From the NCBI GenBank assembly GCA_026129095.1, contig JAHCIT010000002.1, forward strand, positions 450,530-514,529: a DNA stretch of 64,000 bases, in the 5' to 3' direction. The position numbers and the translations under genes were made by a program. This stretch comes from Deltaproteobacteria bacterium. GTDB lineage: Bacteria > JAGRBM01 > JAHCIT01. The notes under the pieces are model-generated. The model ran no database searches, was not told the origin of the DNA, and saw nothing but the letters and a program-made list of their open reading frames with translations. Every line of letters starts with the position of its first letter. Position 1 is the first letter of the stretch. Below are positions 389-20,370 of the stretch, in pieces.

Positions 389-1963
389 GTGACGGATCGT
401 CTGGCGTTGCTGTCGGTATCAGACAAGGCGGGACTGGTGGAATTCGCAAGGGAGCTGAACAGCCTTGGCTGGAAGCTGCTCTCCACCGGCGGCACTGCCC
501 GCACCCTTCGTGATGCAGGACTCAAGGTTACTGACGTGTCGGATTACACGGGCTTTCCGGAAATGATGGACGGGCGGGTGAAGACCCTGCATCCGAAGAT
601 TCATGGCGGCCTGCTCGGTCGCCGGAGTGTTCCTGCCCACACGGATGCGATGAAAGCCAATGGGGTCACGCCCATCGACCTCGTGTGCGTGAATCTCTAC
701 CCATTCGAACAAACAGTGGCCCGCCTTGGTGCAACGCTGGACGAGGCGATCGAGAACATCGACATCGGCGGCCCCTCAATGCTCCGCTCGGCCGCCAAAA
801 ACAGCGAAGACGTGACTGTCATCTGTGATCCCATCGATTACGACATCGTGTGCCGTGAACTGAAATCGAACGGAAACCGGACCAGCAGGGAAACCCGGTT
901 CCGCCTTGCCGTCAAGGCCTACCAGCATACGGCCGCCTATGATGCAGCAATTTCCAACTGGCTGGCGCAAAAAATTGACGGCGAAAGCACCCGCTTCCCC
1001 TCGCAGCTGACCGTGCCGCTGGTTCGTGTCAGGGAACTTCGCTACGGCGAAAATCCACACCAGAAGGCCGCCCTATACCGGGAAAAAAGCCCAGGACCCT
1101 ATTCGCTGGCGGCGGGTGAGGTTCTCCAGGGCAAAGAGCTCTCCTACAACAACTGGCTGGACCTGCACGCTGCCCTTGAGCTGGTGCGTGAGTTCATCCC
1201 TCCAGCCGTGTCGATCATCAAGCACAATAACCCCTGTGGATGCGCCACCGCCAGCGAACTGAGCGAAGCCTACCGCAAGGCCCATGAAGCCGACCCGGTG
1301 AGCGCATTCGGGGGTATCGTGGGCCTGAATCGCGAAGTGGATGGTCCGGCCGCCCGCCGGATGTCCGAGATATTCCTTGAGTGCGTTGTTGCACCGAATT
1401 TTTCCGCTGAGGCGCTGGAGATCCTTTCAGCCAAAAAGAATCTCCGCCTCGTCCGTGTGCCATTTCCGCCGGTTCCAGACGGTGCAGCCTCTACAGCCGG
1501 AATCGGTTCATACGAATTCCGGCGGATAAGCGGCGGCATGCTGGTCCAGGACTGGGATACCGCAGATGCCCCTGAAGCAGACTGGAAGGTAGTCACTAGG
1601 CGCCCACCCTCCGAGGCCGAACGCCGGGCCCTTGCCTTCGCATGGAAAGTCTCCAGGCACGTGAAGTCGAACGCCATCGTACTCGCCCGTGACGGACAGC
1701 TCGTCGGGACTGGCGCTGGCCAGATGAACCGGGTGGATTCGGCCCGGCTTGCAGTGGAACGGTCTGTGCTAGGGACGAAGGATGTCGTCTGTGCATCGGA
1801 TGCCTTTTTCCCGTTTCCTGACGGTCTTGAAACCGTCGCTCGTGCCGGCGCTACTGCCGCCATCCAGCCCGGAGGAAGCGTTCGCGACGACGAGGTGATT
1901 CGCGCAGCTGATGCGGCAGGCATGGCGATGGTATTTACCGGTTTCCGCCATTTCCGCCATTGA
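389..1963 (+). CDS. purH: Bifunctional AICAR transformylase / IMP cyclohydrolase PurH
   Basis: Catalyses the last two steps of de novo purine synthesis in the cytoplasm: formylation of AICAR with 10-formyl-THF, then ring closure to IMP. The protein is 524 residues, the usual PurH length. The N-terminal MGS-like cyclohydrolase domain (about 1-150) carries TGGTARTL and KTLHPKIHGG; the transformylase domain carries the IKHNNPCGCA signature. The GTG start at 389 follows a GGGGAG ribosome site about ten bases upstream. The next reading frame starts near or inside its 3' end, suggesting co-transcription. folD and gcvT further along the window supply the same folate one-carbon pool. Confidence 0.96.
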   Translation: MTDRLALLSVSDKAGLVEFARELNSLGWKLLSTGGTARTLRDAGLKVTDVSDYTGFPEMMDGRVKTLHPKIHGGLLGRRSVPAHTDAMKANGVTPIDLVCVNLYPFEQTVARLGATLDEAIENIDIGGPSMLRSAAKNSEDVTVICDPIDYDIVCRELKSNGNRTSRETRFRLAVKAYQHTAAYDAAISNWLAQKIDGESTRFPSQLTVPLVRVRELRYGENPHQKAALYREKSPGPYSLAAGEVLQGKELSYNNWLDLHAALELVREFIPPAVSIIKHNNPCGCATASELSEAYRKAHEADPVSAFGGIVGLNREVDGPAARRMSEIFLECVVAPNFSAEALEILSAKKNLRLVRVPFPPVPDGAASTAGIGSYEFRRISGGMLVQDWDTADAPEADWKVVTRRPPSEAERRALAFAWKVSRHVKSNAIVLARDGQLVGTGAGQMNRVDSARLAVERSVLGTKDVVCASDAFFPFPDGLETVARAGATAAIQPGGSVRDDEVIRAADAAGMAMVFTGFRHFRH

Positions 1964-1988
1964 TGCAGGTACGGCTAGCGCTCCAGAC

Positions 1989-4541
1989 GTGAAACTGTTT
2001 GCCGGCTTTTCAAGACTGTTTCCCCTGTGGGTCATCCTTGGATCTGCAGCCGCTTTTGCCGTACCAGAGCTGGTTCTCCCCGCTGCACCCCTGCTCCGTG
2101 GCCTGTTCATCGCCACCATGTTCTGCACCGGCATGGTGCTGCACGAATCCGAGCTGAATGAAATCCGGCGGAATCCGTGGCCCGTGGCTGGCGGTGTCTC
2201 GCTCCAGTTTCTCATCATGCCGCTGGCGGCATTTGCCATCTCCCGGCTGCTGCCTCTGGAGCCGATAGACCAACTGGGCCTCATTCTGGCCGGTGCGGTC
2301 CCCGGAGCGATGGCCAGCAACACGATCACCTATCTCGCCGGCGGGGACGTGGCCTTTTCCGTGGCGATGACCGTTGTATCAACAGCACTGGCACCAGTCC
2401 TGACGCCACTGCTGACCGGCTTCTATTCCGGTACGGCTGTATCTCTGGACACCGGCAGCATGATGTTCGATATTTTTCTGACAGTCGTACTGCCGGTCGC
2501 GGCTGGCTACACCCTTCGGTACTTTTTCACGGAACAGGTGGTACAGATAGAGCCTGTCCTGGCGTCTGCCAGCGTTTTTTCGATAACTGGAATCATCGCG
2601 ATTGTCACCGCGCAGAATGCAGGGCGTATTGTCAGTGTTGGTGCGATGGTGATCCTTGCAGTCATCCTGGTAAACGGAACGGGATATCTCCTGGGCTATC
2701 TGGGAGCTCGTCTGGGTGGGCTTGACCGCAGGCGGCGGCTGACCGTGGCCATTGAGATCGGCATGCAGAACGCGGGGCTTTCCACTGTGCTGGCGAGCCG
2801 GTATATCTCTCCTGAGGCGGCTCTGGCCGGGTCGTTTTATACTGTCTGGTGCGTTATCACCGGATCACTGCTCTCCCCCTTCCGCCGGGAAGCCGCAGCT
2901 GACCGGCAGATTGCAGAACTGGCGGCCACTGCCCAGGAGAAACCTGTTCGAATGAGCGATAACACTGAGGATGACAATGGATCCACGGCCCAGCCGGCTG
3001 GCCCACGCCGGCCCATCAACTTGCCGGGAAATCCTGTAATTCTGGAGCGGAGCGAGCATCCGGTTTCACGCAAGTCGATCTCGCCAGAGGCCCAGAAAGT
3101 CCTTTACCGGCTGAGATCAGAAGGGTACCGGGCGTTTCTCGTCGGTGGATCGGTGAGGGATCTTCTACTTGGCCGCAAGCCCAAGGATTTCGACGTTGCC
3201 ACTGACGCTTCCCCCCGGCAAGTGGCCCGGCTGTTCCGGAATGCACGGGTAATCGGCCGCCGTTTCCGGGTAGTCCATGTCCGGTTCGGCCGGGACACAG
3301 TGATCGAGGTCGCCACATTCCGCGCTACCCCCAAACCCGGTCAAGGCGATGACGAGCAGCAGGTTGCCGAGGAATTTGCCGGAAACGAAGCCGACGAATT
3401 CATGCATGACAATGCCATGGCTTCAGCTCCGATTGGCGATGACCTGGATGATGAGCCGACCGAAACGGATGCGCTCAGAATCGTGGCGGAAGCCGCCCAT
3501 GCAGACGAAGAAGATGACGATACTGAGGACGAAAGCAATGTTGAGGATCATTCTACGGGAGTTCAGGAGCGGCGGCCGCGCCCCCCGTTGCCGCACAGGG
3601 AAACAGGCGAGAACCCGCATCTACAGTGGGACGATAACGTCTTTGGCACCGCTGAAGAGGATGCATTCCGGCGCGATCTTTCCATAAACGGCCTTTTCTA
3701 CGACATCGATTCGTTTTGCGTGATTGATTACGTAGGCGGTCTCGATGATCTCAGACATCGTCTTATCCGTACCATTGGAGATCCGAATGTCCGGTTTCTT
3801 GAAGATCCTGTCCGGATGATCCGCGCCATCCGCCATGCGGCGCGTGTCGGGTTCCGGATAGAGGACAACACATGGGAGGCAATCAAGATTCACCACGAGC
3901 AGATCAAGAACTGCTCAAGGGCCCGCGTGCTGGAGGAGTTCCTGCGCGAGCTTTCCCGGGGAAGCTCACACGCCTCGCTGACACTGCTTGAGAAAACAGG
4001 GCTTCTGCGCGATATTCTTCCGCCGCTGGCCGATGCCCTTGGCCCCTGTCCCGGAGAAAACGATCACCAGAAGCGGGCCTGGCGGCGGTTTGAAGTGGCC
4101 GATCAGTGTTACCAGCGCGGCGAGCTCCCTGAGGAACTCGCCTATACTGTCGCCGTGGCTCCCTATAATGACGATCTCGTAGATGCCATATCCAGCCCCG
4201 ATTTCGATGTAGGGCGGCTGCCCGGTGTGCTAACGCAGGCCGGAGAACGAATTGGGGAGATCAACCGGCGGCTGGCCGTACCACGCCGGCTCGGCATCCC
4301 GGCTGTGAATATCTATCTGAATTTCATGCTTCTCCGCCGGGGCCTTGGTACCGGACGCATGAATGCCCGGCTCGTCACGAGTCCCCAGCGGATGCAGCAG
4401 TGCTATCCGCTCTATACAATCGATGCGCTGGCCCGCGGCGAACAGCCGCAAACCATTGATGAATTCCTGAACATGCCCCGCCAGAAAAAGCGTAGCAGCA
4501 ACCGGCGGCGCCCCGGCCGCCGAGGTTCATCCGGCCACTGA
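1989..4541 (+). CDS. In-frame fusion: SBF-type (bile acid:sodium symporter-like) transporter + poly(A) polymerase/CCA-type nucleotidyltransferase
   Basis: One uninterrupted frame encodes two unrelated proteins. The frame is open from an ATG at 1911 (inside purH); I prefer the GTG at 1989 because SBF proteins normally begin with an LFPLW-type segment, as here. Roughly residues 1-315 form about nine or ten hydrophobic helices with SBF features (GMVLHESEL, GAVPGAMASN, EIGMQNAGL). From the ATG at 2952 the sequence is a PcnB-like polymerase: LVGGSVRDLLLG, the DFD metal-binding pair, RRDLSIN, and the RNA-binding helical region RFLEDPVRMIRAIRHA. About 80 extra, very acidic residues lie between ATFR and the RRDLSIN motif. 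The C-terminus is basic (KKRSSNRRRPGRRG). Two genes are normally expected; see the finding on the junction. Confidence 0.75.
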   Translation: MKLFAGFSRLFPLWVILGSAAAFAVPELVLPAAPLLRGLFIATMFCTGMVLHESELNEIRRNPWPVAGGVSLQFLIMPLAAFAISRLLPLEPIDQLGLILAGAVPGAMASNTITYLAGGDVAFSVAMTVVSTALAPVLTPLLTGFYSGTAVSLDTGSMMFDIFLTVVLPVAAGYTLRYFFTEQVVQIEPVLASASVFSITGIIAIVTAQNAGRIVSVGAMVILAVILVNGTGYLLGYLGARLGGLDRRRRLTVAIEIGMQNAGLSTVLASRYISPEAALAGSFYTVWCVITGSLLSPFRREAAADRQIAELAATAQEKPVRMSDNTEDDNGSTAQPAGPRRPINLPGNPVILERSEHPVSRKSISPEAQKVLYRLRSEGYRAFLVGGSVRDLLLGRKPKDFDVATDASPRQVARLFRNARVIGRRFRVVHVRFGRDTVIEVATFRATPKPGQGDDEQQVAEEFAGNEADEFMHDNAMASAPIGDDLDDEPTETDALRIVAEAAHADEEDDDTEDESNVEDHSTGVQERRPRPPLPHRETGENPHLQWDDNVFGTAEEDAFRRDLSINGLFYDIDSFCVIDYVGGLDDLRHRLIRTIGDPNVRFLEDPVRMIRAIRHAARVGFRIEDNTWEAIKIHHEQIKNCSRARVLEEFLRELSRGSSHASLTLLEKTGLLRDILPPLADALGPCPGENDHQKRAWRRFEVADQCYQRGELPEELAYTVAVAPYNDDLVDAISSPDFDVGRLPGVLTQAGERIGEINRRLAVPRRLGIPAVNIYLNFMLLRRGLGTGRMNARLVTSPQRMQQCYPLYTIDALARGEQPQTIDEFLNMPRQKKRSSNRRRPGRRGSSGH
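2952..2955 (+). other. pcnB: ATGA at the transporter/polymerase junction (probable original pcnB start)
   Basis: The ATG at 2952-2954 begins the polymerase-like part in the same frame as the upstream transporter. The overlapping TGA at 2953-2955 is in the next frame. This ATGA is the standard overlap of translationally coupled genes, so a one-base indel upstream of it would convert the fused frame into two normal genes. Internal initiation here would give a free 529-residue polymerase. Confidence 0.5.
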
Positions 4542-4819: not shown

Positions 4820-7063
4820 CTATTCCGGTAGAGGTGGCAAGTCGGTCGCAGGCGGGGGTATGCCCGGTTCGGCGGGACGAACCGGTTCGGGTGGAGGTGG
4901 AGGGGGCAAAGCCGGTTCTGCCGGAGGGGGCGGCGGCGCTGCCGGAGCCGGTGCTGGTACTGGCGGAGCCGGCTCCGAGGCAGGAGTTTCGGCCTGCTGG
5001 CTTCCGGACCTGGTCCCTTCGCGTATTTTCTCGATCGCCTTCCGTGCCCTGGTCTCTCGTGGATTTTCGATCAGTGCCGTATCGTACTGGGCAACTGCCG
5101 CTTTCAGGTCACCTGTGAGACGGAACATTTCCCCCCGGTAGAAATGGGCCTGGCTGCGAAGCGTGGGGCTAAGCTGCCCACGGTAGACTGTCATCAGCAG
5201 TTCAAGATTGGCCGTCGCTTCGGCATATTTCTGGTCCTTGACGAGCTGTTCGGTGGAAATAAAGAGATCCTGGACCTCCCTGTCCGAAAGTTTCGGAGGC
5301 TCTTTCTGAGCGGCGGGATCAGGTGGCAAATCCCTCAGTAACAGTTTCTGTCCAACGGCACGGGCACGGACATGGGAGGGACTGATAGCCAGTGTTTCGC
5401 GCACCTGCACTTCTGCAGCCTCAAGATCCTGTCCAGCTGCCGTGTAACGGTTCGCCAGTTCCGCACGGGCCGCAGCAAAGCGTGGCTCCAGCTCAATCGC
5501 CTTCAAATAGTGGTCCATCCCAGCCGGATCCGACAGTTTGGCCAGCCCCTGAAGGTAGTGGACAAATGGATCGTTGGGACTCCGCGCACCTTCTTCACCT
5601 GCGATTTTCTGGGCCTCGGTAAATCTCCGGGCAAGCAGCAATCCAGTCACAACTGCATTCCGGCTGGCCAGCGGGGCGGAGGTGATCTGCGCCAGGTTTT
5701 CTACTGCCGTCAGGGCGCTATCCGCATAGGAACTGTCACCCTGGGAAAGGGCGGAAAACGCCTGTATCATCTTCACCAGTGCCGTGATTTCGCGTGGCGT
5801 GTCTTCCGTACCTGTCAGCGGATCCAGTACGGCAAGTGCCGCGGCATATGCGTCAGGAGTATCGGGAAGCATCGCCATGAGCGCTTCCGACACCGGCTGA
5901 AGATAGGGATTGTCGCCTTCCAGTCTGGGAACATAGTTCTCAGCGTACGGCCGCTGGGCCCGCTCGGCCTGGCTGGCCCGCAACTGCTGCTGAAGCAGTG
6001 CCTGTTGCCGGGCGATGCGCTCGGCATCCCGCATATCCGGCGGCTGGTATTCCGGTTTCAGAATGGCAACAACCGGTTCAAGCACCGGCCGGGCCGGGCC
6101 GGCGAAAAAGCGATCCAGAAGATCATCCTTGGGAAGCACCACGGCATAAAACACGCCGCCAGCCGCCAGAACCAGCAATACCAGGCCAATCGCTGCCGTC
6201 AGCACAAGGCTCCCGCCCTTTGGCGCAGATGGGGCCTCTTCGTCGAGACTGTCGAGCTCAAAGCCCAGCGTTGCCGGCTTACGTGGAGACTGCTGTGCGG
6301 GTGGCGACAGCCTGATGTTTTCAGGCACAGGTTCTGGAGCTGAAGCCGGAGCCGGAGCCGGTGGCTTGGAAACCGGCGTAACTGCATCCGGATCCGGAGC
6401 AAGACCCAGCAGCGGAGCAATTTCTATGAATTTCTGTGGCGGAGCCCAGTCCGAGCCGTCGCGAGAATAGGTGTCGCGTGCCCCAATCCGCTCATTGGAT
6501 ATCCAGGACTGGACTGTATTCAGATCCGCAGGACCGTATATCAGGCCAAGACCCTGCTTCTTGACGCGCCATTTGGCACCGGAATCTTTTACAGGTGCAG
6601 CGACGGCCGTCTTGGCAGCGGCTGGAGCCGCCGGAGCTGGTGATGGCTTGGCCGGGGGTGGGGTTGCCGGAGCGGCAGGCTTTGGCTGTGGCGGCACTTT
6701 TACCAGATCATTCAGCGTCTCCGAATATATGGGTGCCTTGCCCCCCCCAGAGTTTTGGGGTGACTCGCTGGAGGCACTGTCCGCCATCGGAATTGGCTGC
6801 TCATCGACCATTGAACTGCTCATCGGAGCCGATTTTGCACCGCCATGAATCGGATCATCATCGGATCGGGGAGTGGACGGCTTTGCCGCGGGTACAGTCT
6901 TTGCTGGAGGCGGGGCTGATGCTTCGCCATCAACTGCCTTGCGCTTGACCACAAAAACATTGGAGCAGCTGCTGCAACGGACTTTCGTTCCCTGTGGAGA
7001 AAGTTTCTGCGGGTCCAGATTGTACTGGGCGCTGCATTTCGGACATTTCACCCGCATCGCCAT
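4820..7063 (-). CDS. Zinc-ribbon (MJ0042) / GYF_2 / transmembrane / TPR protein (shorter paralogue)
   Basis: 747 residues from the ATG at 7063, chosen because GAGGGAG lies about nine bases upstream and the zinc ribbon begins at once; the frame is open to 7240 but upstream residues are junk-like. Order: MJ0042 zinc ribbon (Cys7, Cys10, Cys30, Cys33), Pro/Ala-rich linker, GYF_2-like domain (about 163-222, with IYGPADL and a following tryptophan), second linker, one membrane helix (about 286-310), then a TPR-rich region (about 410-680) and a Pro-rich tail. This predicts a cytoplasmic ribbon and GYF with a periplasmic TPR scaffold. It lies 106 bases downstream of a longer paralogue on the same strand. 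The plan resembles the N-terminal half of myxobacterial GltJ; that link is inference. Confidence 0.85.
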   Translation of the reverse strand: MAMRVKCPKCSAQYNLDPQKLSPQGTKVRCSSCSNVFVVKRKAVDGEASAPPPAKTVPAAKPSTPRSDDDPIHGGAKSAPMSSSMVDEQPIPMADSASSESPQNSGGGKAPIYSETLNDLVKVPPQPKPAAPATPPPAKPSPAPAAPAAAKTAVAAPVKDSGAKWRVKKQGLGLIYGPADLNTVQSWISNERIGARDTYSRDGSDWAPPQKFIEIAPLLGLAPDPDAVTPVSKPPAPAPASAPEPVPENIRLSPPAQQSPRKPATLGFELDSLDEEAPSAPKGGSLVLTAAIGLVLLVLAAGGVFYAVVLPKDDLLDRFFAGPARPVLEPVVAILKPEYQPPDMRDAERIARQQALLQQQLRASQAERAQRPYAENYVPRLEGDNPYLQPVSEALMAMLPDTPDAYAAALAVLDPLTGTEDTPREITALVKMIQAFSALSQGDSSYADSALTAVENLAQITSAPLASRNAVVTGLLLARRFTEAQKIAGEEGARSPNDPFVHYLQGLAKLSDPAGMDHYLKAIELEPRFAAARAELANRYTAAGQDLEAAEVQVRETLAISPSHVRARAVGQKLLLRDLPPDPAAQKEPPKLSDREVQDLFISTEQLVKDQKYAEATANLELLMTVYRGQLSPTLRSQAHFYRGEMFRLTGDLKAAVAQYDTALIENPRETRARKAIEKIREGTRSGSQQAETPASEPAPPVPAPAPAAPPPPPAEPALPPPPPPEPVRPAEPGIPPPATDLPPLPE

Positions 7064-7169
7064 TGGCCAACTACTCCCTCGTCTCACACGGACAACCAGC
7101 CTGCTAGCCGTCCGCAAACCCCTGAGTAGACGCCTTTTTAGCGCCCGCCCGCCTGAATACCAAATCCCG

Positions 7170-10100
7170 TTACCTGACGCCGAGCTGGGCCATTTCGGCT
7201 GGCTGGTACTTATGGCCGACGAGAATCCGGCGGATCTCATCCTCTCCCAGCCCCTGCCCGCGAATGGCTCCGATCACGTCCATTTTCCGTTTGTCGCTGA
7301 GCTGCGCGGTTTTGGCGAGTGCCCTGCTCCAGCTCGCTACGGCACCACGTGAATCATTCTTCTCATAAAGCAACGAATAGCCAATCTGGACATGGGCCTC
7401 ACCCAGGTTCGAATCATACCGGATAGCCTGCCGGCAGTGGCCTTCGCCGCCAACATAGTCCTGCTTGTCCATGGCGATCAGACACCGGTACAAGTGCGCC
7501 TTGGGAATTGCCGGTCTGATCGACAGTAACCGTTTCAGCGTCGCATCCGACTGGGCTGGGCGGTCAAGCTCGTCCCTTTCCACGTACCCCATGACCTGAA
7601 GCGCCTCAATCTGGATTTCGCCCAGAAGCTGCAGCCGGTCCGCTTCCCATTTCGGCCAGCGACGCGGGTGCCAGTCCAGAAACTGCTCTGCAAGCGGGGC
7701 CGTCTCGGGAACAATGGCGTATTTCTTCAGTGTACGGATTCGCTCCTCTTCCTGTGCAAGCTTTGGAAGAAGCTGCTCGTACATGGCATGGGCTTCACGC
7801 CATTTTTCCTGGCGGGTCAGAATCCGGGCTTTGGCGATATCAGGGTCGATAAATGGTGACCATCCCTGGGATTCATTGGCCTGAGCCTTGCGGATGGATA
7901 CATCAAGCTGCTGATTCGCCTGAGCATACTGGCGAAGTCCGGCCCACGCACGCCCCCACCAGTAGGCAATGATCGGATTCTCCCGGGCATAGTAGTCGGC
8001 CTTCGAAAACTCGCCGTTTGCCGCCTGGAACAGGGCATCGGCTTCCGGAACCGGGATGGCCTTGGCCTGTGCCACCAGCGTTTCCGCCTGAGCCAGCCGG
8101 GAACGGGCAATCCAGAAATAAACCTGGGGTTCCGATTTGCGGATGGCCAGTGCCTGATTCAGGTCAGCTACCGCCTCTTCGTAACGGCCGAGATAGAACT
8201 TCACGATCGCCCGCTCCACATAGAGCTGGGAATTCTGGTCGTCGGCCTTGAGCAGCTGGACCGCCTGATCGTATGCTGAAAGCGCGGCGGCGTAGTCGCC
8301 TATTTCCCACAGGAACTTGGCAAGCTGCTGATGGGTAGCAATGCGGAGGGGAGCAAGCTCCACCGCCTGCCGCGTCCTGGAAATGGCGTTGCTGCTTTCG
8401 CCCAGCTCCCAATAGGTGCGGCCGATGGCAACGAACGTCTCGGGGTTCTGGGGATCAAGCTCAATGGCACGATCGAAGGAAGCAAGTGCGTCCTGCGTAC
8501 GTCCCTGCGTGAGCTGAAGCTGGCCCAGCGAGACATAGGCGTCGGCATTCTGTGGATCGATGCCGATTACAGCCTCATACTCGATCTGGGCCAATTCGAC
8601 ACGCCCGGAACGGGCATATGCCTGCCCGAGCAGCACTCGCGCCGAAAGGTCTCCCGGATCCAGACGAATCGCCTCTTTCAGGGCTGCCTCACCCTTGTCG
8701 TTTTCACCGATGGCGAGGTGCGCCCGTCCAATCCGCTGATGAGCGGCCTGATAAGTCCGGTCAACCTTGATGGCCTCTGCATAGCTGATCAGGGCGTCCG
8801 AAACCTGCCCAGCGGCAAATAACGCATCTCCAACGATTGTTTTTGATTCCGCCGACGGGAACACCTGATCGGCCTCCCGCGCCTTGGCGAGCGCTGAACC
8901 TGCCTGGCCATCGGCCATTAACAGGGCGGCCCGAACCACCAATACCCGGGCGCGGAATGGCTTGACGGCGGCGAGAGGTATTTTTTCCACGGCATCAAGC
9001 AGCTCGACAGCCTGCCGGCTCTGATCGGGCATCCGGCGCAAAATGAATTGCGCTTTCATCAGACGCGGATAGACCGCGTTTGGCCGGGCCGAAATGGCCT
9101 TGTCGTATCCTTCCGAGGCCTGCGTATAATCTTTCTGAAGTTCGTGCAGCCGTGCCTGAACGATGAGAGCAAGCTGGTGTTCTCCTCCCACGGCAAACGC
9201 CTTGTCCAGGGCTGCCTGTGCGGCGGCAAACTGGTCCGGTTTCCCCAGCAGTGCATACGCCAGAGCTACCTGAGCGTCAGCCGACCCGGCAGCGACGGTG
9301 GCGGCATTCTGTGCGACTGCTATCGCCTCATCTGTCTTGCCTGCGACGCGAAGTACATGGGCAAAGGCAATCAGCGTATGCTCGGCGGTGGCATCGACGC
9401 CCTTCACCGCCTCGGCCATCGCCTGACCATCCGCCAGCTTCGTTCGTTCACCGAGCATTTCAGCCCAGAAGGCATAGAGTCTCGCCAGAAGGGCTGCCGC
9501 CTGAAAATTCGATGGGTTCTTCTGGATCGCCGTCTTGAGTTCCTTTTCGGCCTCGGGGAACTGTTCGACCAGCAGCGCGCTGACAATTGCCTCTGCCTTC
9601 TGCTGGGACTGACGGGAAACGGCTTCCCGCGATGACGTTACTGACTGGCGGCTGCTGACCAGTTCCCGAAGCTTGGCTGTATTCAGCTGGGAAAAGTCCA
9701 CTTCGCGCATCTGGTACCACCAGAATGCTCCGCCTGCGGCAATGGCAAGAACGACGACTCCAACAGCGACCTTTATGATCAGGCTGATATTGCCTGCCAT
9801 CCCTCCGCCGCCCAAGCCCGTCGCGCCAATGGCATCGGCATCGAAATTGAAACCGCCAGCTCCCGCTGCCTCGGCACTGGCCGTAGCAAGAAACTTTTCC
9901 AGATCGGTATTTTCGATATTGGGGATTTCCAGGAGAATGCGCACCGGAAGCCACGGGCCTTCGTCACGGGAAATCTCGTCCTTGACTCCGATCTTCTTGC
10001 TCTTGAGCAGATCCTTGATCTTGCCTATCGGGAAAGGCCCTGCGAGCTGGTCCTTGGCATTCTTGACCTTGTACTGGCCGGCGGCCACCGCAACCGTGTC

Positions 10101-10793
10101 GGTAAAGGCGTCATCGTCGAATCCGATGGTAGCCGTGCCGGCCGCCGGAGCGGCACGGCCTTTCTTGATCTCCTGCTCAACCTGGCGATCCAGTGCATCC
10201 AGTTCGTCCAGGGCATCGCCACCGCCGCCATCATCAAACGAAAAGTTCCCGTCCGAATCACGAACCGCTCCACCGCCTGTATCTATTTCGGACGCACCAG
10301 CGAACGCGCCTCCGCCAATGGATTCTTCTGGTTCTTCCGTTGCAAACGGATCCTCGGGAGCATGATCGGCGAATGGGTCATTTGCCGCACCCGCACCGGC
10401 GGCAGTTTTCTTGGGTTTTGGAGGGGGCGGCGCAACTGGCTCAGGCGGCACTTCCTCCTCGGCAGTGAAATTGAAATCATCGGGCGGAGAAACCGACCCC
10501 TCGACCTCCAGTTTGTCCTCGGAAAGCCCGGCGAACGGATCATCACCTCCGCCAAAAGGATCTTCGGTTTCTGCGGCCACGGGTGGTGGAGCGGCTGGCT
10601 TCGGAGCGGGTGCCGGTTTTGGCGGTGGAGCCGCTTCAGCCTGGGGAGCCGCAGCTCCTTCCTGGGAACCATCCGGCAGGATCACGATCACTGCACCGCA
10701 GCTTTTGCATTTGACGCCGACCTTCTTGCCCTTGGGGATCTTGGCATCGTCGATATTGAAAGCCGCATTGCAGGACTGGCAGACGATCTTCAT
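7170..10793 (-). CDS. Zinc-ribbon (MJ0042) / GYF_2 / transmembrane / multi-TPR protein (long paralogue)
   Basis: 1207 residues; the start is fixed by AAGGAG about six bases before the ATG. Order: zinc ribbon (Cys5, Cys8, Cys29, Cys32); a long acidic/Pro linker with repeated DPF motifs (near 78, 85, 139 and 148); GYF_2-like domain (about 239-300, with LAGPFPIGKI and RDEGPWLPV); one membrane helix (about 336-358); then some 800 residues of TPR repeats, including textbook copies ending in IELDPQNP and IGIDPQNADAY. The N-terminus should face the cytoplasm and the TPR array the periplasm. It heads a two-gene minus-strand unit with its shorter paralogue. Probable role: transenvelope scaffold in motility or polarity, by analogy only. 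Confidence 0.88.
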   Translation of the reverse strand: MKIVCQSCNAAFNIDDAKIPKGKKVGVKCKSCGAVIVILPDGSQEGAAAPQAEAAPPPKPAPAPKPAAPPPVAAETEDPFGGGDDPFAGLSEDKLEVEGSVSPPDDFNFTAEEEVPPEPVAPPPPKPKKTAAGAGAANDPFADHAPEDPFATEEPEESIGGGAFAGASEIDTGGGAVRDSDGNFSFDDGGGGDALDELDALDRQVEQEIKKGRAAPAAGTATIGFDDDAFTDTVAVAAGQYKVKNAKDQLAGPFPIGKIKDLLKSKKIGVKDEISRDEGPWLPVRILLEIPNIENTDLEKFLATASAEAAGAGGFNFDADAIGATGLGGGGMAGNISLIIKVAVGVVVLAIAAGGAFWWYQMREVDFSQLNTAKLRELVSSRQSVTSSREAVSRQSQQKAEAIVSALLVEQFPEAEKELKTAIQKNPSNFQAAALLARLYAFWAEMLGERTKLADGQAMAEAVKGVDATAEHTLIAFAHVLRVAGKTDEAIAVAQNAATVAAGSADAQVALAYALLGKPDQFAAAQAALDKAFAVGGEHQLALIVQARLHELQKDYTQASEGYDKAISARPNAVYPRLMKAQFILRRMPDQSRQAVELLDAVEKIPLAAVKPFRARVLVVRAALLMADGQAGSALAKAREADQVFPSAESKTIVGDALFAAGQVSDALISYAEAIKVDRTYQAAHQRIGRAHLAIGENDKGEAALKEAIRLDPGDLSARVLLGQAYARSGRVELAQIEYEAVIGIDPQNADAYVSLGQLQLTQGRTQDALASFDRAIELDPQNPETFVAIGRTYWELGESSNAISRTRQAVELAPLRIATHQQLAKFLWEIGDYAAALSAYDQAVQLLKADDQNSQLYVERAIVKFYLGRYEEAVADLNQALAIRKSEPQVYFWIARSRLAQAETLVAQAKAIPVPEADALFQAANGEFSKADYYARENPIIAYWWGRAWAGLRQYAQANQQLDVSIRKAQANESQGWSPFIDPDIAKARILTRQEKWREAHAMYEQLLPKLAQEEERIRTLKKYAIVPETAPLAEQFLDWHPRRWPKWEADRLQLLGEIQIEALQVMGYVERDELDRPAQSDATLKRLLSIRPAIPKAHLYRCLIAMDKQDYVGGEGHCRQAIRYDSNLGEAHVQIGYSLLYEKNDSRGAVASWSRALAKTAQLSDKRKMDVIGAIRGQGLGEDEIRRILVGHKYQPAEMAQLGVR

Positions 10794-14805: not shown

Positions 14806-16374
14806 CTATTTGCTGAGCAGAACCCGGACCGTCCCGTCGTGGGCGTCTTCACCGCCATACCGGACCACAAGATCATCTGTCTGGTCACCGTTCAGGTCAA
14901 CGGCAAAAGTGAAGAAGGACGCCTTGGGGACCTTGATCCGTCCGCAGTCACTGGCCCAGCCCTTGTTCGCCGTGGTCAGGCAGATACGGTAACTGCCGGG
15001 GCCCTCAGACTGAAGCAGATCCGGTCGGCCATCCCCGTTGAAATCCCCGTCAAGCAGATAGGACGTGAGCAGGCCGGAGCCCTGATGGGAAAGATCGAAC
15101 TTGAACGGGATCGTTTCGCATTCATCCGGGTCATCACTGAAAATCCCGTCCTTCGAGTGATGAGCGTGATAGTCAACCGAGATCCGCCCGAACAGCTTGA
15201 TACGGATCGCCTGCCAGATGCTGAAAGGTATCTCCTGATACACAAGGTCAAGCTTCCCATCAGCATTGGTATCAATAAGGCGCGGCTGTTCAGTAAAATT
15301 CTTCACGTGAAATGTCTGGTCCGGGCTGGCCGGGAATTTCCCGCCCCGGTTGCGGTAAACGTAGATCTCCGACAGCAGTTTCAGGCTCGACAGGTCGTTG
15401 ATCGAAACCTTGGAAATCACCACATCAGAGTGCCCATCCCCGTCTATGTCGCCCACTTCAAAGCGGGTAAGCGGGGCGATATGTCCGTGCCGCATCAGCT
15501 CCCGTAAACCGAACCGGGCGAAATCCCACATCTCGGGCGCAGGATCAAAGTTGCCGTCCTCCGTCGCCCGGAAGACAAGAAGCCGGTCGTCACGGGCCAC
15601 CCACAAGTCCTTGCGACGGTCTCCATCGAAATCGGCAAGGAACAACTGCGGAAGCAGCTGGACCACTCTCGACGACCCGAATTCCAGACGGGCGAACAGG
15701 ATGTTCCCCTCCCAGATCGATGACAGTTCCGTATCCAGGGGAACCGGGAATATCTGGTGGATCCGCCATTCATGGGCGCCAGGGGCCCCGTTCTGCACTG
15801 GCATCAGCTTGAACAGGTACCACTGGTCGGCATCAGGCACCATCAGTTCGGCGGTTCCATCGCCCGTATAGTCCCTGAGCAGCTCACGGGAAAGAATTGA
15901 CGTCCGGTCAGGAGCCGTGAACACGCTGCGGACGGTGATGATCCGCTGTGGCTCATCCGATAGCCGCCCATCAGAGAACGAATAGGCGAAGACCCCTTCC
16001 GACGAAATGAAACCGATATCCGGGCCTGGCGTCGCCGGGTCGAAATTGCCCACGTCGTACACCACGGCACGGTCAGAAGCCCGCACGCTCTGGTCTGGGG
16101 TCTTCGGGAATCCATCACGGGTCTGGAGAAACAGGTCGAAGTATTTTTCCACAGTGCGGGTGGTTTCATCCAGCCTTGTCCGCATTGCCACAATATCGAG
16201 AAGGCCATCCCCGTTGAAGTCGGCCCACCGGACACTCCTTACCAGATCGCCCGTAGTCAGCACGTGCTGCTGATGGGAGAGATCCGCCGCTCCCGCTGCC
16301 GAAATTCCTGCAAACATAACCAGCGACAGGGCGGCGCCCGCTATCCTGCCAATGAAACCAGATTCCTGGTGCAT
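14806..16374 (-). CDS. Secreted FG-GAP/VCBS repeat protein (integrin alpha-like propeller)
   Basis: 522 residues from the ATG at 16374, supported by GGAGGGG about eight bases upstream. A Sec signal peptide (hydrophobic run ending AGAADL, about 1-32) predicts export. At least seven Ca-binding loops of type DxNGDGxxDLV are spread evenly: DFNGDGLLDIV, DYTGDGTAEL, DFDGDRRKDLW, DIDGDGHSDVV, DTNADGKLDLV, DFNGDGRPDLL and DLNGDQTDDLV. This is the pattern of a seven-bladed beta-propeller. Such proteins act in adhesion or as surface scaffolds; the ligand is unknown. Its 3' end lies six bases from the convergent ZIP gene. Confidence 0.88.
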   Translation of the reverse strand: MHQESGFIGRIAGAALSLVMFAGISAAGAADLSHQQHVLTTGDLVRSVRWADFNGDGLLDIVAMRTRLDETTRTVEKYFDLFLQTRDGFPKTPDQSVRASDRAVVYDVGNFDPATPGPDIGFISSEGVFAYSFSDGRLSDEPQRIITVRSVFTAPDRTSILSRELLRDYTGDGTAELMVPDADQWYLFKLMPVQNGAPGAHEWRIHQIFPVPLDTELSSIWEGNILFARLEFGSSRVVQLLPQLFLADFDGDRRKDLWVARDDRLLVFRATEDGNFDPAPEMWDFARFGLRELMRHGHIAPLTRFEVGDIDGDGHSDVVISKVSINDLSSLKLLSEIYVYRNRGGKFPASPDQTFHVKNFTEQPRLIDTNADGKLDLVYQEIPFSIWQAIRIKLFGRISVDYHAHHSKDGIFSDDPDECETIPFKFDLSHQGSGLLTSYLLDGDFNGDGRPDLLQSEGPGSYRICLTTANKGWASDCGRIKVPKASFFTFAVDLNGDQTDDLVVRYGGEDAHDGTVRVLLSK

Positions 16375-16483
16375 GATCTGTCCCCTCCTCAACCCCTAAC
16401 GAAGACGGCGTCACCCCCTCCGAAGGAGTGCGCCGTCCGGCCGTAGCCACATGGCCGTCACGAACGGAAACCCGCTATGACGG

Positions 16484-17581: not shown

Positions 17582-18044
17582 CTCTTCTCTTCCTCGTTGC
17601 TCCTGCCGGGAGAACCGGGGCAGTCCGGCCACCGGGGCCCCGCAAGGTTCAGTTGAAGAACCCCGAGTACCCACAGGCGGATGCGTATGGTGACCGGTTT
17701 TGGTTCCCCTGAACCTCTCCGTACCACACCTATAAGCTAATCCCCTTTAGGGCAGGAACAAGGATAGAGGTCATAAAACCAAACCTCTGGATTTAATGAA
17801 AATCACCGGTTGGAAAGCAGGCCACCGGAACCATCGGTAACTATGGAGAAAATACACTTGCGCCCAGCAAGGACCTCGCAAGACAGGGTATTTTGACTTT
17901 ACCAATTTAACTGTAAATTCAGTTGGTTATAATGATTCTGAGGATTTATTTTGCCCGGCGTCGTTGCGTTTCACGGCAGGACGCACGTAGTCTGGAACCA
18001 CGATTTGACGCGTCATGTCTAACATGCGCTCACCGAGGGTAAAA
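17582..18044 (+). other. Intergenic region between divergent genes; AT-rich leader of the ybaB-recR unit
   Basis: No credible gene is seen here. The left part is GC-rich leader of the minus-strand winged-helix gene. From about 17700 it becomes AT-rich. A perfect TATAAT sits at 17928-17933, about 110 bases before the ybaB start; the best -35-like hexamer at proper distance (TTTAAC, 17906-17911) is poor, and a TTGACT at 17893 is too far. I consider this the likely promoter zone of the ybaB-recR-mglBA block. Confidence 0.4.
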
Positions 18045-18413
18045 ATGGCCGACGAACCTGCATCGCCCTTTGGAGGCCCGGTCGACCTGTCAAAGTTGAT
18101 GGGGCAGGCCCAGCAGCTGATGGCTGACGTGGGCAAGAAGCGCGAGGCGTACGAAAAAGCCCTCGAAAAGGAAATTGTTGAAGCCGCAGCCGGCGGTGGA
18201 ATGGTCAGGGTGAAGGCCAATGGTCTGGGTCGCATCCTGTCAATCTCCTTTGACCGCGAACTGGTTCAGCCGCTCGACACGGACCTTCTGCAAGATGTCA
18301 CCACCGCTGCTGTAAACGAGGCTCTCCGCCGGGCCGAAGCAGCCGCCGACAGGGTAAAAAACGAACTGCTTGCTGCCCTCCCCTTTGCCGGCCTGTTCCA
18401 GGGAAAGCTGTAG
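18045..18413 (+). CDS. ybaB: YbaB/EbfC nucleoid-associated protein
   Basis: 122 residues from the ATG at 18045, preferred over the upstream ATG at 18015 because GAGGGT lies just before it and family members start near LxKLMxQAQ. The LSKLMGQAQQLMADVGKKREAYEKALEKE coiled start, the glycine-rich GGGMVRVKANG and the DRELVQPLD strand are typical. YbaB forms dimers that bind DNA without strong sequence specificity. It is classically encoded directly before recR, as here. The C-terminal tail (PFAGLFQGKL) also fits the family. Confidence 0.9.
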   Translation: MADEPASPFGGPVDLSKLMGQAQQLMADVGKKREAYEKALEKEIVEAAAGGGMVRVKANGLGRILSISFDRELVQPLDTDLLQDVTTAAVNEALRRAEAAADRVKNELLAALPFAGLFQGKL

Positions 18414-18489: not shown

Positions 18490-19164
18490 ATGCTCGTTCC
18501 CGACCCTATCGACCGGCTGGCGGCTGTGTTTCGGCGACTGCCCGGCGTGGGACGTCGGCAGGCCCTCCGGATGGCTCTTTACATTGCCGACCGGCGCAAG
18601 GATCTCTTGAAACCGCTGGGCAAGGCGATCGAGGAGTTCGCTTCCCAGCTAAAGCCCTGCGCCCGCTGCACCGTCTGGACTGAAGGCGAACTCTGCGCCG
18701 TTTGTGCTGATCCGGATCGTGACAGACGAAAAATCTGTGTCATAGAAGACCTGCCTGATCTCGAATCGTTCGAGACCAGTGGCGTCTATACCGGCTTGTA
18801 CCACGTGCTCCACGGACGGCTCGCACCGTCCAAAGGAACAGGTCCCGGCGAGCTTTCATGGGAGCCATTGCTGGAACGGCTCCAGGCCGGGCCACCGGAA
18901 GAACTCGTTCTGGCCCTCAGCCATACCACCGAGGGGGAAACCACCGCCGCTGAACTCTGCCGTTCCGTCGATAAACTGGAACTCCCGATTCGGGTGACCC
19001 GGATCGTTCGTCCCTCTGGCGCCGGTCCGGAGCCCGAATACTGGGAGCGGGAAGAACTGGAGGAGGCACTGACGGGACGCCGGGCCTATCATCCTGAAAC
19101 CCGGCCCCGAAGGGCCAGACCCGCCTCAGGACGGTCCAGAACCCGGCACGGAAGTTCCGCTTGA
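18490..19164 (+). CDS. recR: Recombination mediator RecR
   Basis: 224 residues; RecR works with RecF/RecO to load RecA on gapped DNA. Visible parts: helix-hairpin-helix LPGVGRRQALRMAL, the four-Cys zinc finger (CARC...CAVC), the Toprim-domain start ICVIEDLPDLESFE and the C-terminal Walker-like region. The protein is about 20 residues longer than usual, with a basic, disordered tail after RRAYH. It is the second gene of the conserved ybaB-recR pair and directly precedes mglB-mglA, a linkage I associate with deltaproteobacteria. The ATG at 18490 has no obvious ribosome site. Confidence 0.94.
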   Translation: MLVPDPIDRLAAVFRRLPGVGRRQALRMALYIADRRKDLLKPLGKAIEEFASQLKPCARCTVWTEGELCAVCADPDRDRRKICVIEDLPDLESFETSGVYTGLYHVLHGRLAPSKGTGPGELSWEPLLERLQAGPPEELVLALSHTTEGETTAAELCRSVDKLELPIRVTRIVRPSGAGPEPEYWEREELEEALTGRRAYHPETRPRRARPASGRSRTRHGSSA

Positions 19165-19276: not shown

Positions 19277-19762
19277 ATGGCTGGTCCAAGCTTCGTGATG
19301 TACGAAACCGAGTACAACGAGATCTCGGACGTCATTGAAAAACTGGCCAAGGAAGCGAACGCCAAGGTCGTCTTTCTGGTCGACAAAAACGGTCAGCTCA
19401 TCGCCAGTTGTGGCGAAACAGAGAATCTTGACACGACGTCGATGGCCTCGCTCACGGCAGGCAATATCGCAGCCACCGGCGGCCTTGCGAAATTGCTCGG
19501 CGAGCGTGAGTTCTCGGTCCTTTTCCACGAAGGCGACCGCGACAACCTGCATATCTCGATCATCGGCGGCCGGGTGATTCTCGTCGTGATCTTCGACGGC
19601 CGCAGCTCGCTCGGACTGGTTCGCCTCCGGGTCAAGAAGGCGGGCGAAGTCCTCCAGAAGATATTCGAGCGGCTGGTCGCCAAGGCCGAGGCCGAAGGAC
19701 AGGGTGCATCGCCATTTGCGGAGATCACCGACGACGATATCGATAACCTGTTCAGTGAATAA
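19277..19762 (+). CDS. mglB: Roadblock/LC7 protein MglB, GTPase-activating partner of MglA
   Basis: 161 residues from the ATG at 19277; the frame is open upstream to 19217 but [13 protein letters not shown] matches the family start. The alternating strands and helices ([54 protein letters not shown]) are the roadblock fold, and the length matches myxobacterial MglB. In Myxococcus MglB is the GAP for MglA and marks the lagging pole. It lies 20 bases upstream of mglA, so the two should be co-expressed. The C-terminal tail ends [10 protein letters not shown], acidic and probably disordered. Confidence 0.93.
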
Positions 19763-19782: not shown

Positions 19783-20370
19783 ATGTCGTTCATCAACTAC
19801 AGCTCCCGTGAGATCAACTGCAAGATCGTCTATTACGGTCCGGGGTTGTGCGGAAAGACAACCAATCTCCAGCACATCTACGACAAGTCCAATCCTGAAG
19901 CGAAGGGCAAGATGATCTCCCTCGCCACGGAAACCGAGCGGACGCTGTTTTTCGATTTCCTTCCGCTCTCGCTCGGCGAGATTCGCGGTTTCAAGACTCG
20001 CTTTCACCTCTACACGGTTCCTGGGCAGGTATTCTACGACGCCTCGCGCAAGCTGATCCTGAAGGGTGTGGATGGCGTCATTTTTGTCGCCGACAGCCAA
20101 GTGGAGCGCATGGAGGCAAACATCGAATCGGTCGAGAACCTGAAGCAGAATCTCGCCGAACAGGGCTACGACCTCGCCAAGATTCCCTATGTCATGCAGT
20201 GGAACAAGAGAGACCTTCCCAACGCCGCGCCGGTGGAGGAACTCCAGAAGCTTCTCAACCACCTGAATGTGCCGGCTTTCGAAGCCTGTGCATCCAAGGG
20301 CACTGGTGTGTTTGAAACGCTCAAAGCAAATGCCAAACTGGTCCTTACGGAACTGAAAAAGGGCAAATAG
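19783..20370 (+). CDS. mglA: Ras-like polarity GTPase MglA
   Basis: 195 residues, almost identical in pattern and length to Myxococcus xanthus MglA. P-loop GPGLCGKTT (19-27), PM3 with TVPGQ (78-82; the MglA-specific Thr replaces the usual Asp) and NKRD (141-144) are all intact, as is LTELKKGK at the C-terminus. In Myxococcus, MglA-GTP sits at the leading pole and activates both type IV pili and gliding complexes; MglB, encoded just upstream, turns it off. A GGGAGG precedes the ATG by about 12 bases. The two ZnR-GYF proteins and two PilT-like ATPases in this window are plausible effectors or outputs. Confidence 0.97.

Follow-up and report, generated by a model that had tools for sequence, protein, structure and literature searches.

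GltJ (AgmX, MXAN_4862), a component of the gliding machinery of Myxococcus xanthus, is listed among the effectors of the GTPase MglA (PMC12288465) and carries an N-terminal MJ0042 zinc ribbon, a linker, a GYF domain, and a membrane helix. Bd0075 of Bdellovibrio bacteriovorus combines a cytoplasmic GYF-like domain with extracytoplasmic tetratricopeptide repeats (TPRs), and a two-hybrid test shows its C-terminal domain interacting with Bd0474, a TPR/FHA protein (PMC12034629); when Bd0075 is disrupted by a transposon, the cells fail to attach to prey and to kill it (PMC6561027). Bd2492 and MXAN_5766 (SgmX) are TPR proteins that are linked to MglA (PMC3983030, PMC7519303). We analyzed a window of 64,000 nucleotides from a Deltaproteobacteria bacterium (assembly GCA_026129095.1, contig JAHCIT010000002.1), in which two adjacent genes, here called A and B, each encode an MJ0042 zinc ribbon, a GYF-type domain, a single transmembrane helix, and TPRs that are strong in A and weak in B, in agreement with a first-pass annotation made from the sequence alone. 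On balance we lean toward the view that A and B are inner-membrane scaffolds, in which a cytoplasmic zinc ribbon-linker-GYF module would dock a spatial regulator while presumed periplasmic TPR arms would hold envelope proteins. Their features are as follows.

7170-10793, minus strand: gene A, 1207 amino acids (aa), A-type, with zinc ribbon, proline-rich linker, GYF, transmembrane helix, and TPRs in that order
10686-10793, minus strand: MJ0042/zinc_ribbon_4 domain of A, residues 1-36 (PF13717 E 1e-10; TIGR02098 E 3e-7)
9909-10085, minus strand: GYF-type domain of A, residues ~237-295 (profile comparison and AlphaFold model)
9708-9788, minus strand: sole transmembrane helix of A, residues ~336-362 (hydropathy)
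7314-9596, minus strand: TPR region of A, residues ~400-1160, presumed periplasmic from its likely topology (TPR_2 E 7e-33)
4820-7063, minus strand: gene B, 747 aa, B-type, with zinc ribbon, proline-rich linker, GYF, transmembrane helix, weak TPRs, and proline-rich tail in that order
6950-7057, minus strand: zinc ribbon of B, residues 3-38 (PF13717 E 1.3e-14)
6401-6577, minus strand: GYF-type domain of B, residues ~163-221 (profile comparison and AlphaFold model)
6131-6211, minus strand: transmembrane helix of B, residues ~285-311 (hydropathy)
5057-5512, minus strand: weak TPR matches of B, residues ~518-669 (E 2e-4 to 3e-3, below the Pfam cut-offs)
4823-4996, minus strand: proline-rich C-terminal tail of B, 49% proline by sequence composition

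The open reading frame listed for gene B starts at 7240, inside gene A, and we place its likely start at 7063, since this position follows GAGGGAGTAG and stands directly before the zinc ribbon. Co-transcription of the two genes is plausible, because the gap of ~106 bases between them holds no terminator-like site.

Both proteins share with GltJ the succession of a zinc ribbon and then a GYF domain ahead of one transmembrane helix, which in each of them is the one strong hydrophobic helix by hydropathy. The resemblance to GltJ does not extend to the full protein: the full-length model NF033761 scores only 33.4 bits on B and 25.8 bits on A against a cut-off of 450, the match ending at the zinc ribbon and linker, and no gene in G000 or G001 rises above that cut-off. 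Where GltJ has its C-terminal region, A and B have TPRs, which in A are strongly matched (TPR_2 E 7e-33), and the GYF subtype differs as well.

The nearest solved structure by sequence to the zinc ribbon of A is that of GltJ/AgmX (7zok, E 9e-7). The "GYF_2" label proposed in the first-pass annotation proved right as to the domain and wrong as to the family model, for Pfam GYF_2 (PF14237) matches neither A nor B at any threshold, high E-values included. The A and B domains nevertheless match the GltJ-type GYFs of Myxococcota at 94% probability in a profile-profile comparison, which was one-to-one and has an E-value uncorrected for search. When a GYF profile of 14 sequences was run against the PDB, the sole sequence match at E <= 1 was the GYF of GltJ/AgmX (7z3c, E 0.029). 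AlphaFold models of both domains, built from alignments of two sequences with confidence (pLDDT) of 68 and 66 overall and ~73 to 84 in the core, have as their leading Foldseek matches GYF domains throughout, that of GltJ (7z3c) included, at probabilities up to 1.00. From the profile-profile match, the PDB match, and the modeled fold together, A and B are predicted to carry real GYF domains despite the Pfam miss. That the nearest solved structures by sequence are those of GltJ supports assigning both the zinc ribbon and the GYF to the GltJ kind. The A and B GYFs are nonetheless a subtype distinct from the GltJ GYF. Against the published signature GP[YF]xxxx[MV]xxWxxx[GN]YF (PMC12034629), B shows GPAxxxxVxxW, A shows GPF without the tryptophan, and neither shows the GYF itself.

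The family to which A and B belong is widespread. Of 195 Myxococcota genomes, 12 hold relatives detected by a profile of the A GYF-transmembrane region; most of these proteins are 1100 to 1560 aa long, and a zinc ribbon, GYF, and helix are present in the ones inspected at full length. A scan of genome contigs with the alignment of the same region gave no match. The GYF-subtype profile reached 170 of the 195 genomes, mostly with one long A-like and one short B-like protein each. Among the representatives, a hydrophobic helix follows the GYF, Pfam finds TPRs in long and short forms alike, and a zinc ribbon is present in all but the protein of G269. A-type linkers from Myxococcota and G001 (e.g., L011, L196, L253, and L276) hold the motif FG[DE]VD[FL] 11 times against 0.1 expected from residue shuffling, a descriptive count for a pattern picked after viewing examples, and many Myxococcota linkers hold [AV][IV]PLPG repeats; neither is present in the A of the window. 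Two small genomes without canonical mglA, G115 and G252 (L195, L198), carry the GYF subtype at the N terminus of several membrane proteins that have no zinc ribbon.

Could the adjacency of A and B, with the same order of domains, reflect a recent duplication, or else two unrelated TPR proteins that each gained a common zinc ribbon by chance? We consider this very improbable. The two proteins have little in common beyond the zinc ribbon and the GYF. A tree of the small domains, which spans ~95 columns and has no strong support, separates GltJ-type, B-type, and A-type sequences, with B among the Myxococcota B-types rather than with A, and A at the base near the A-types. In Myxococcota the two types also occupy different places, with serS next to the A-type gene and the B-type gene lying between a presumed ftsK (our own reading) and gatA-gatB. 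The tandem recurs, moreover, in G001, the only genome in the sample of relatives that belongs to the same taxonomic order as the window genome (the others are listed as "same domain"), with other outer neighbors and with identities of 30% and 28%. Together, the tree groups and the long and short forms in Myxococcota suggest that A and B represent two subfamilies of long standing and not a recent duplication. The earlier proposal that TPRs had replaced the periplasmic part of GltJ implies a derivation from GltJ, and it fits poorly with a tree, weakly supported as it is, in which the three groups stand apart. The position of gatA beside Myxococcota B-type genes suggested that the amidase adjoining gene A in the window might be GatA; we dropped this candidate, which scores 243 bits with the gatA model against a cut-off of 481.

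Possible control of A and B by MglA was examined through the surroundings of the genes and through their distribution. The first-pass annotation had placed mglA 9 kb away, and a canonical mglA does lie 9.0 kb from gene A, on the opposite strand, at the end of a retained ybaB-recR-mglBA block.

18015-18413, plus strand: ybaB-like gene preceding recR (43% over 82 aa to its Myxococcota counterpart at the same place)
18490-19164, plus strand: recR, upstream of mglBA (family match)
19280-19762, plus strand: mglB, encoding the GTPase-activating protein of MglA (NF052242 E 3e-25, 89 bits, below the cut-off of 200)
19783-20370, plus strand: mglA, encoding a canonical Ras-like polarity GTPase of 195 aa (matches M. 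xanthus MglA structures at E 1e-106)

In the Myxococcota regions that we read directly, the A-type gene is followed by serS-tadA-dnaX-ybaB-recR-mglBA, of which serS, dnaX, and recR were confirmed by family model and tadA and ybaB were read from sequence. Among the matches listed, 53 Myxococcota genomes have both genes on one contig; in 52 of them 11 to 34 kb separates the A-type gene from mglA, with both on the same strand, and in the remaining genome the distance is 567 kb. Neither serS, tadA, nor dnaX was seen between gene A and mglBA in the window.

The family co-occurs with mglA, a check that the first-pass annotation had put forward. In a broad sample of 386 genomes, 42 have the GYF subtype, and 26 of these also have mglA; of the other 344, mglA is present in 113 (p 5e-4). 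The 195 Myxococcota genomes divide into 160 with both, 14 with mglA only, 10 with the GYF subtype only, and 11 with neither (odds ratio 12.6, p 3e-6). These counts, for which mglA was called at E 1e-60 in Myxococcota and 1e-40 in the broad set, are crude: they are taken from the matches listed, they ignore kinship, and draft genomes inflate the absences, several of the genomes scored as lacking mglA being small or fragmented drafts. The same annotation held that its idea would fail if the genes were common in genomes without mglA. A single open reading frame combines a zinc ribbon, a GYF of this subtype, and a strong helix in nine families of the broad set with mglA and in one without; the nine include G029, whose long A-type frame has its zinc ribbon cut off by the end of the locus. 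The genes are thus not common where mglA is absent, and the idea did not fail on this count; A- and B-type proteins are enriched with mglA but not restricted to genomes that have it.

It is possible, though in our judgment somewhat unlikely, that the zinc ribbon-GYF part of A, B, or both binds MglA-GTP directly; MglA would then set the pole at which the scaffolds assemble. The closest characterized relative of both small domains is, after all, a listed MglA effector; the genes co-occur with mglA; A-type genes sit near it on the same strand in all but one of the listed Myxococcota genomes; and both A and B are near mglBA in the window. Set against this are a GYF subtype unlike that of GltJ, a genus that has the architecture without canonical mglA, and the chance that the synteny follows from serS. 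In Geobacter and Nitrospirota loci serS also lies ~8 to 9 kb from mglA, and no A-type gene was seen there in the short stretch covered upstream of serS; the linkage of A-type genes to mglBA may therefore be a by-product of a conserved serS-dnaX-recR-mglBA block. The effector idea of the first-pass annotation accordingly keeps its GltJ-like zinc ribbon and GYF and its enrichment with mglA, and loses force to these three points.

A partner independent of MglA is a reasonable contender that still falls short of an even chance. The module would then dock a proline-rich or coiled-coil protein or the cytoskeleton, and co-occurrence with mglA would reflect common descent among Myxococcota, Bdellovibrio-like bacteria, and their relatives. 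It is favored by the mglA-less genus with its full architecture, by the ten Myxococcota genomes (some of them drafts) that have the GYF subtype and no mglA match at E 1e-60, by the several zinc ribbon-GYF paralogs, and by the proline-rich peptides that eukaryotic GYF domains bind according to structure titles. It sits less well with an enrichment of mglA that also holds among families of the broad sample that are only distantly placed from one another.

Several observations weigh against the scaffold reading that we favor, or against MglA as its input. Alongside the Pfam miss, the charge bias around the helix of A and B gives no clear topology signal, and the periplasmic location of their TPRs is presumed from the single helix and from the topology of GltJ. 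Several further zinc ribbon-GYF proteins occur in Myxococcota, which means that the module by itself does not have to point to MglA. Nor is MglA a universal partner, since three genomes of one genus (G094, G232, and G361) have the full architecture without canonical mglA, in 3 of 3 genomes searched. Finally, the orthology of Bd0075 to the A-type is one that we infer from layout.

That layout is shared most closely by the 993-aa protein of G269, which has the A/B GYF subtype, one helix, and TPRs without a zinc ribbon, lies upstream of serS, and comes from a genome with mglA. Bd0075, compared here by its published layout alone, resembles this A-type protein and has extracytoplasmic TPRs of similar length, and it differs from A and B in that no zinc ribbon is described for it. 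At the same numbering, 2 of 13 Bd0075 interface residues match in the G269 protein, a count that speaks neither for nor against orthology. Bd2492 and SgmX resemble A and B as TPR proteins, theirs working with MglA, but they have no predicted signal sequence, their TPRs are presumably cytoplasmic, and the available portions of the sources mention no zinc ribbon or GYF; their contact with MglA through TPRs cannot be transferred to A and B, whose TPRs are presumably periplasmic. A literature search returned no description of the A/B family beyond Bd0075, and a search by gene numbers that we had estimated for M. xanthus from where mglBA lies gave no match.

The window genome and G001 encode three MglA-like GTPases each. 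At G000:C14:17294-17860 (L030) and G001:C81:10006-10587 (L032), a second MglA-like GTPase is extended at its C terminus by a proline-rich stretch, and in both genomes a membrane protein whose C-terminal match is GltJ-like lies nearby. Between gene A and mglBA, the window encodes a 528-aa protein with several FG-GAP repeats (14806-16392, minus strand). Beyond gene B, an 876-aa open frame (1911-4541, plus strand) joins an SBF-family transporter domain (residues 67-242) to a poly(A) polymerase head/RNA-binding domain (residues 408-709) with no stop between them, and is either a fusion or an assembly or frame artifact.

In the scaffold reading, the cytoplasmic module, with its zinc ribbon, disordered proline-rich linker, and GYF, would be recruited by or bind polarity or cytoskeletal partners, perhaps MglA or a partner of MglA. 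The single helix would span the inner membrane, and the TPR solenoid, long in A but in B short and followed by a proline-rich tail, would hold envelope partner proteins. A and B could in this way link cytoplasmic spatial control to envelope machines such as those for gliding, pili, or prey or surface attachment. In a bolder version, which we regard as doubtful, A- and B-type proteins would form a general class of transenvelope scaffolds under polarity control, found in Myxococcota, in Bdellovibrio-like bacteria, and in the phylum of the window. MglA-GTP would dock on their zinc ribbon and GYF, their TPR arms would organize pili, gliding, or prey-attachment machines at the pole, and GltJ would be a specialized gliding version of an older module.

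The family is present in most myxobacteria, has a likely relative that is needed for predation by Bdellovibrio, and shares the cytoplasmic docking domains of GltJ. Docking of MglA or another polarity protein on A and B would explain how a cytoplasmic GTPase signal reaches several envelope machines beyond gliding; if none docks, a common myxobacterial scaffold would still have been identified.

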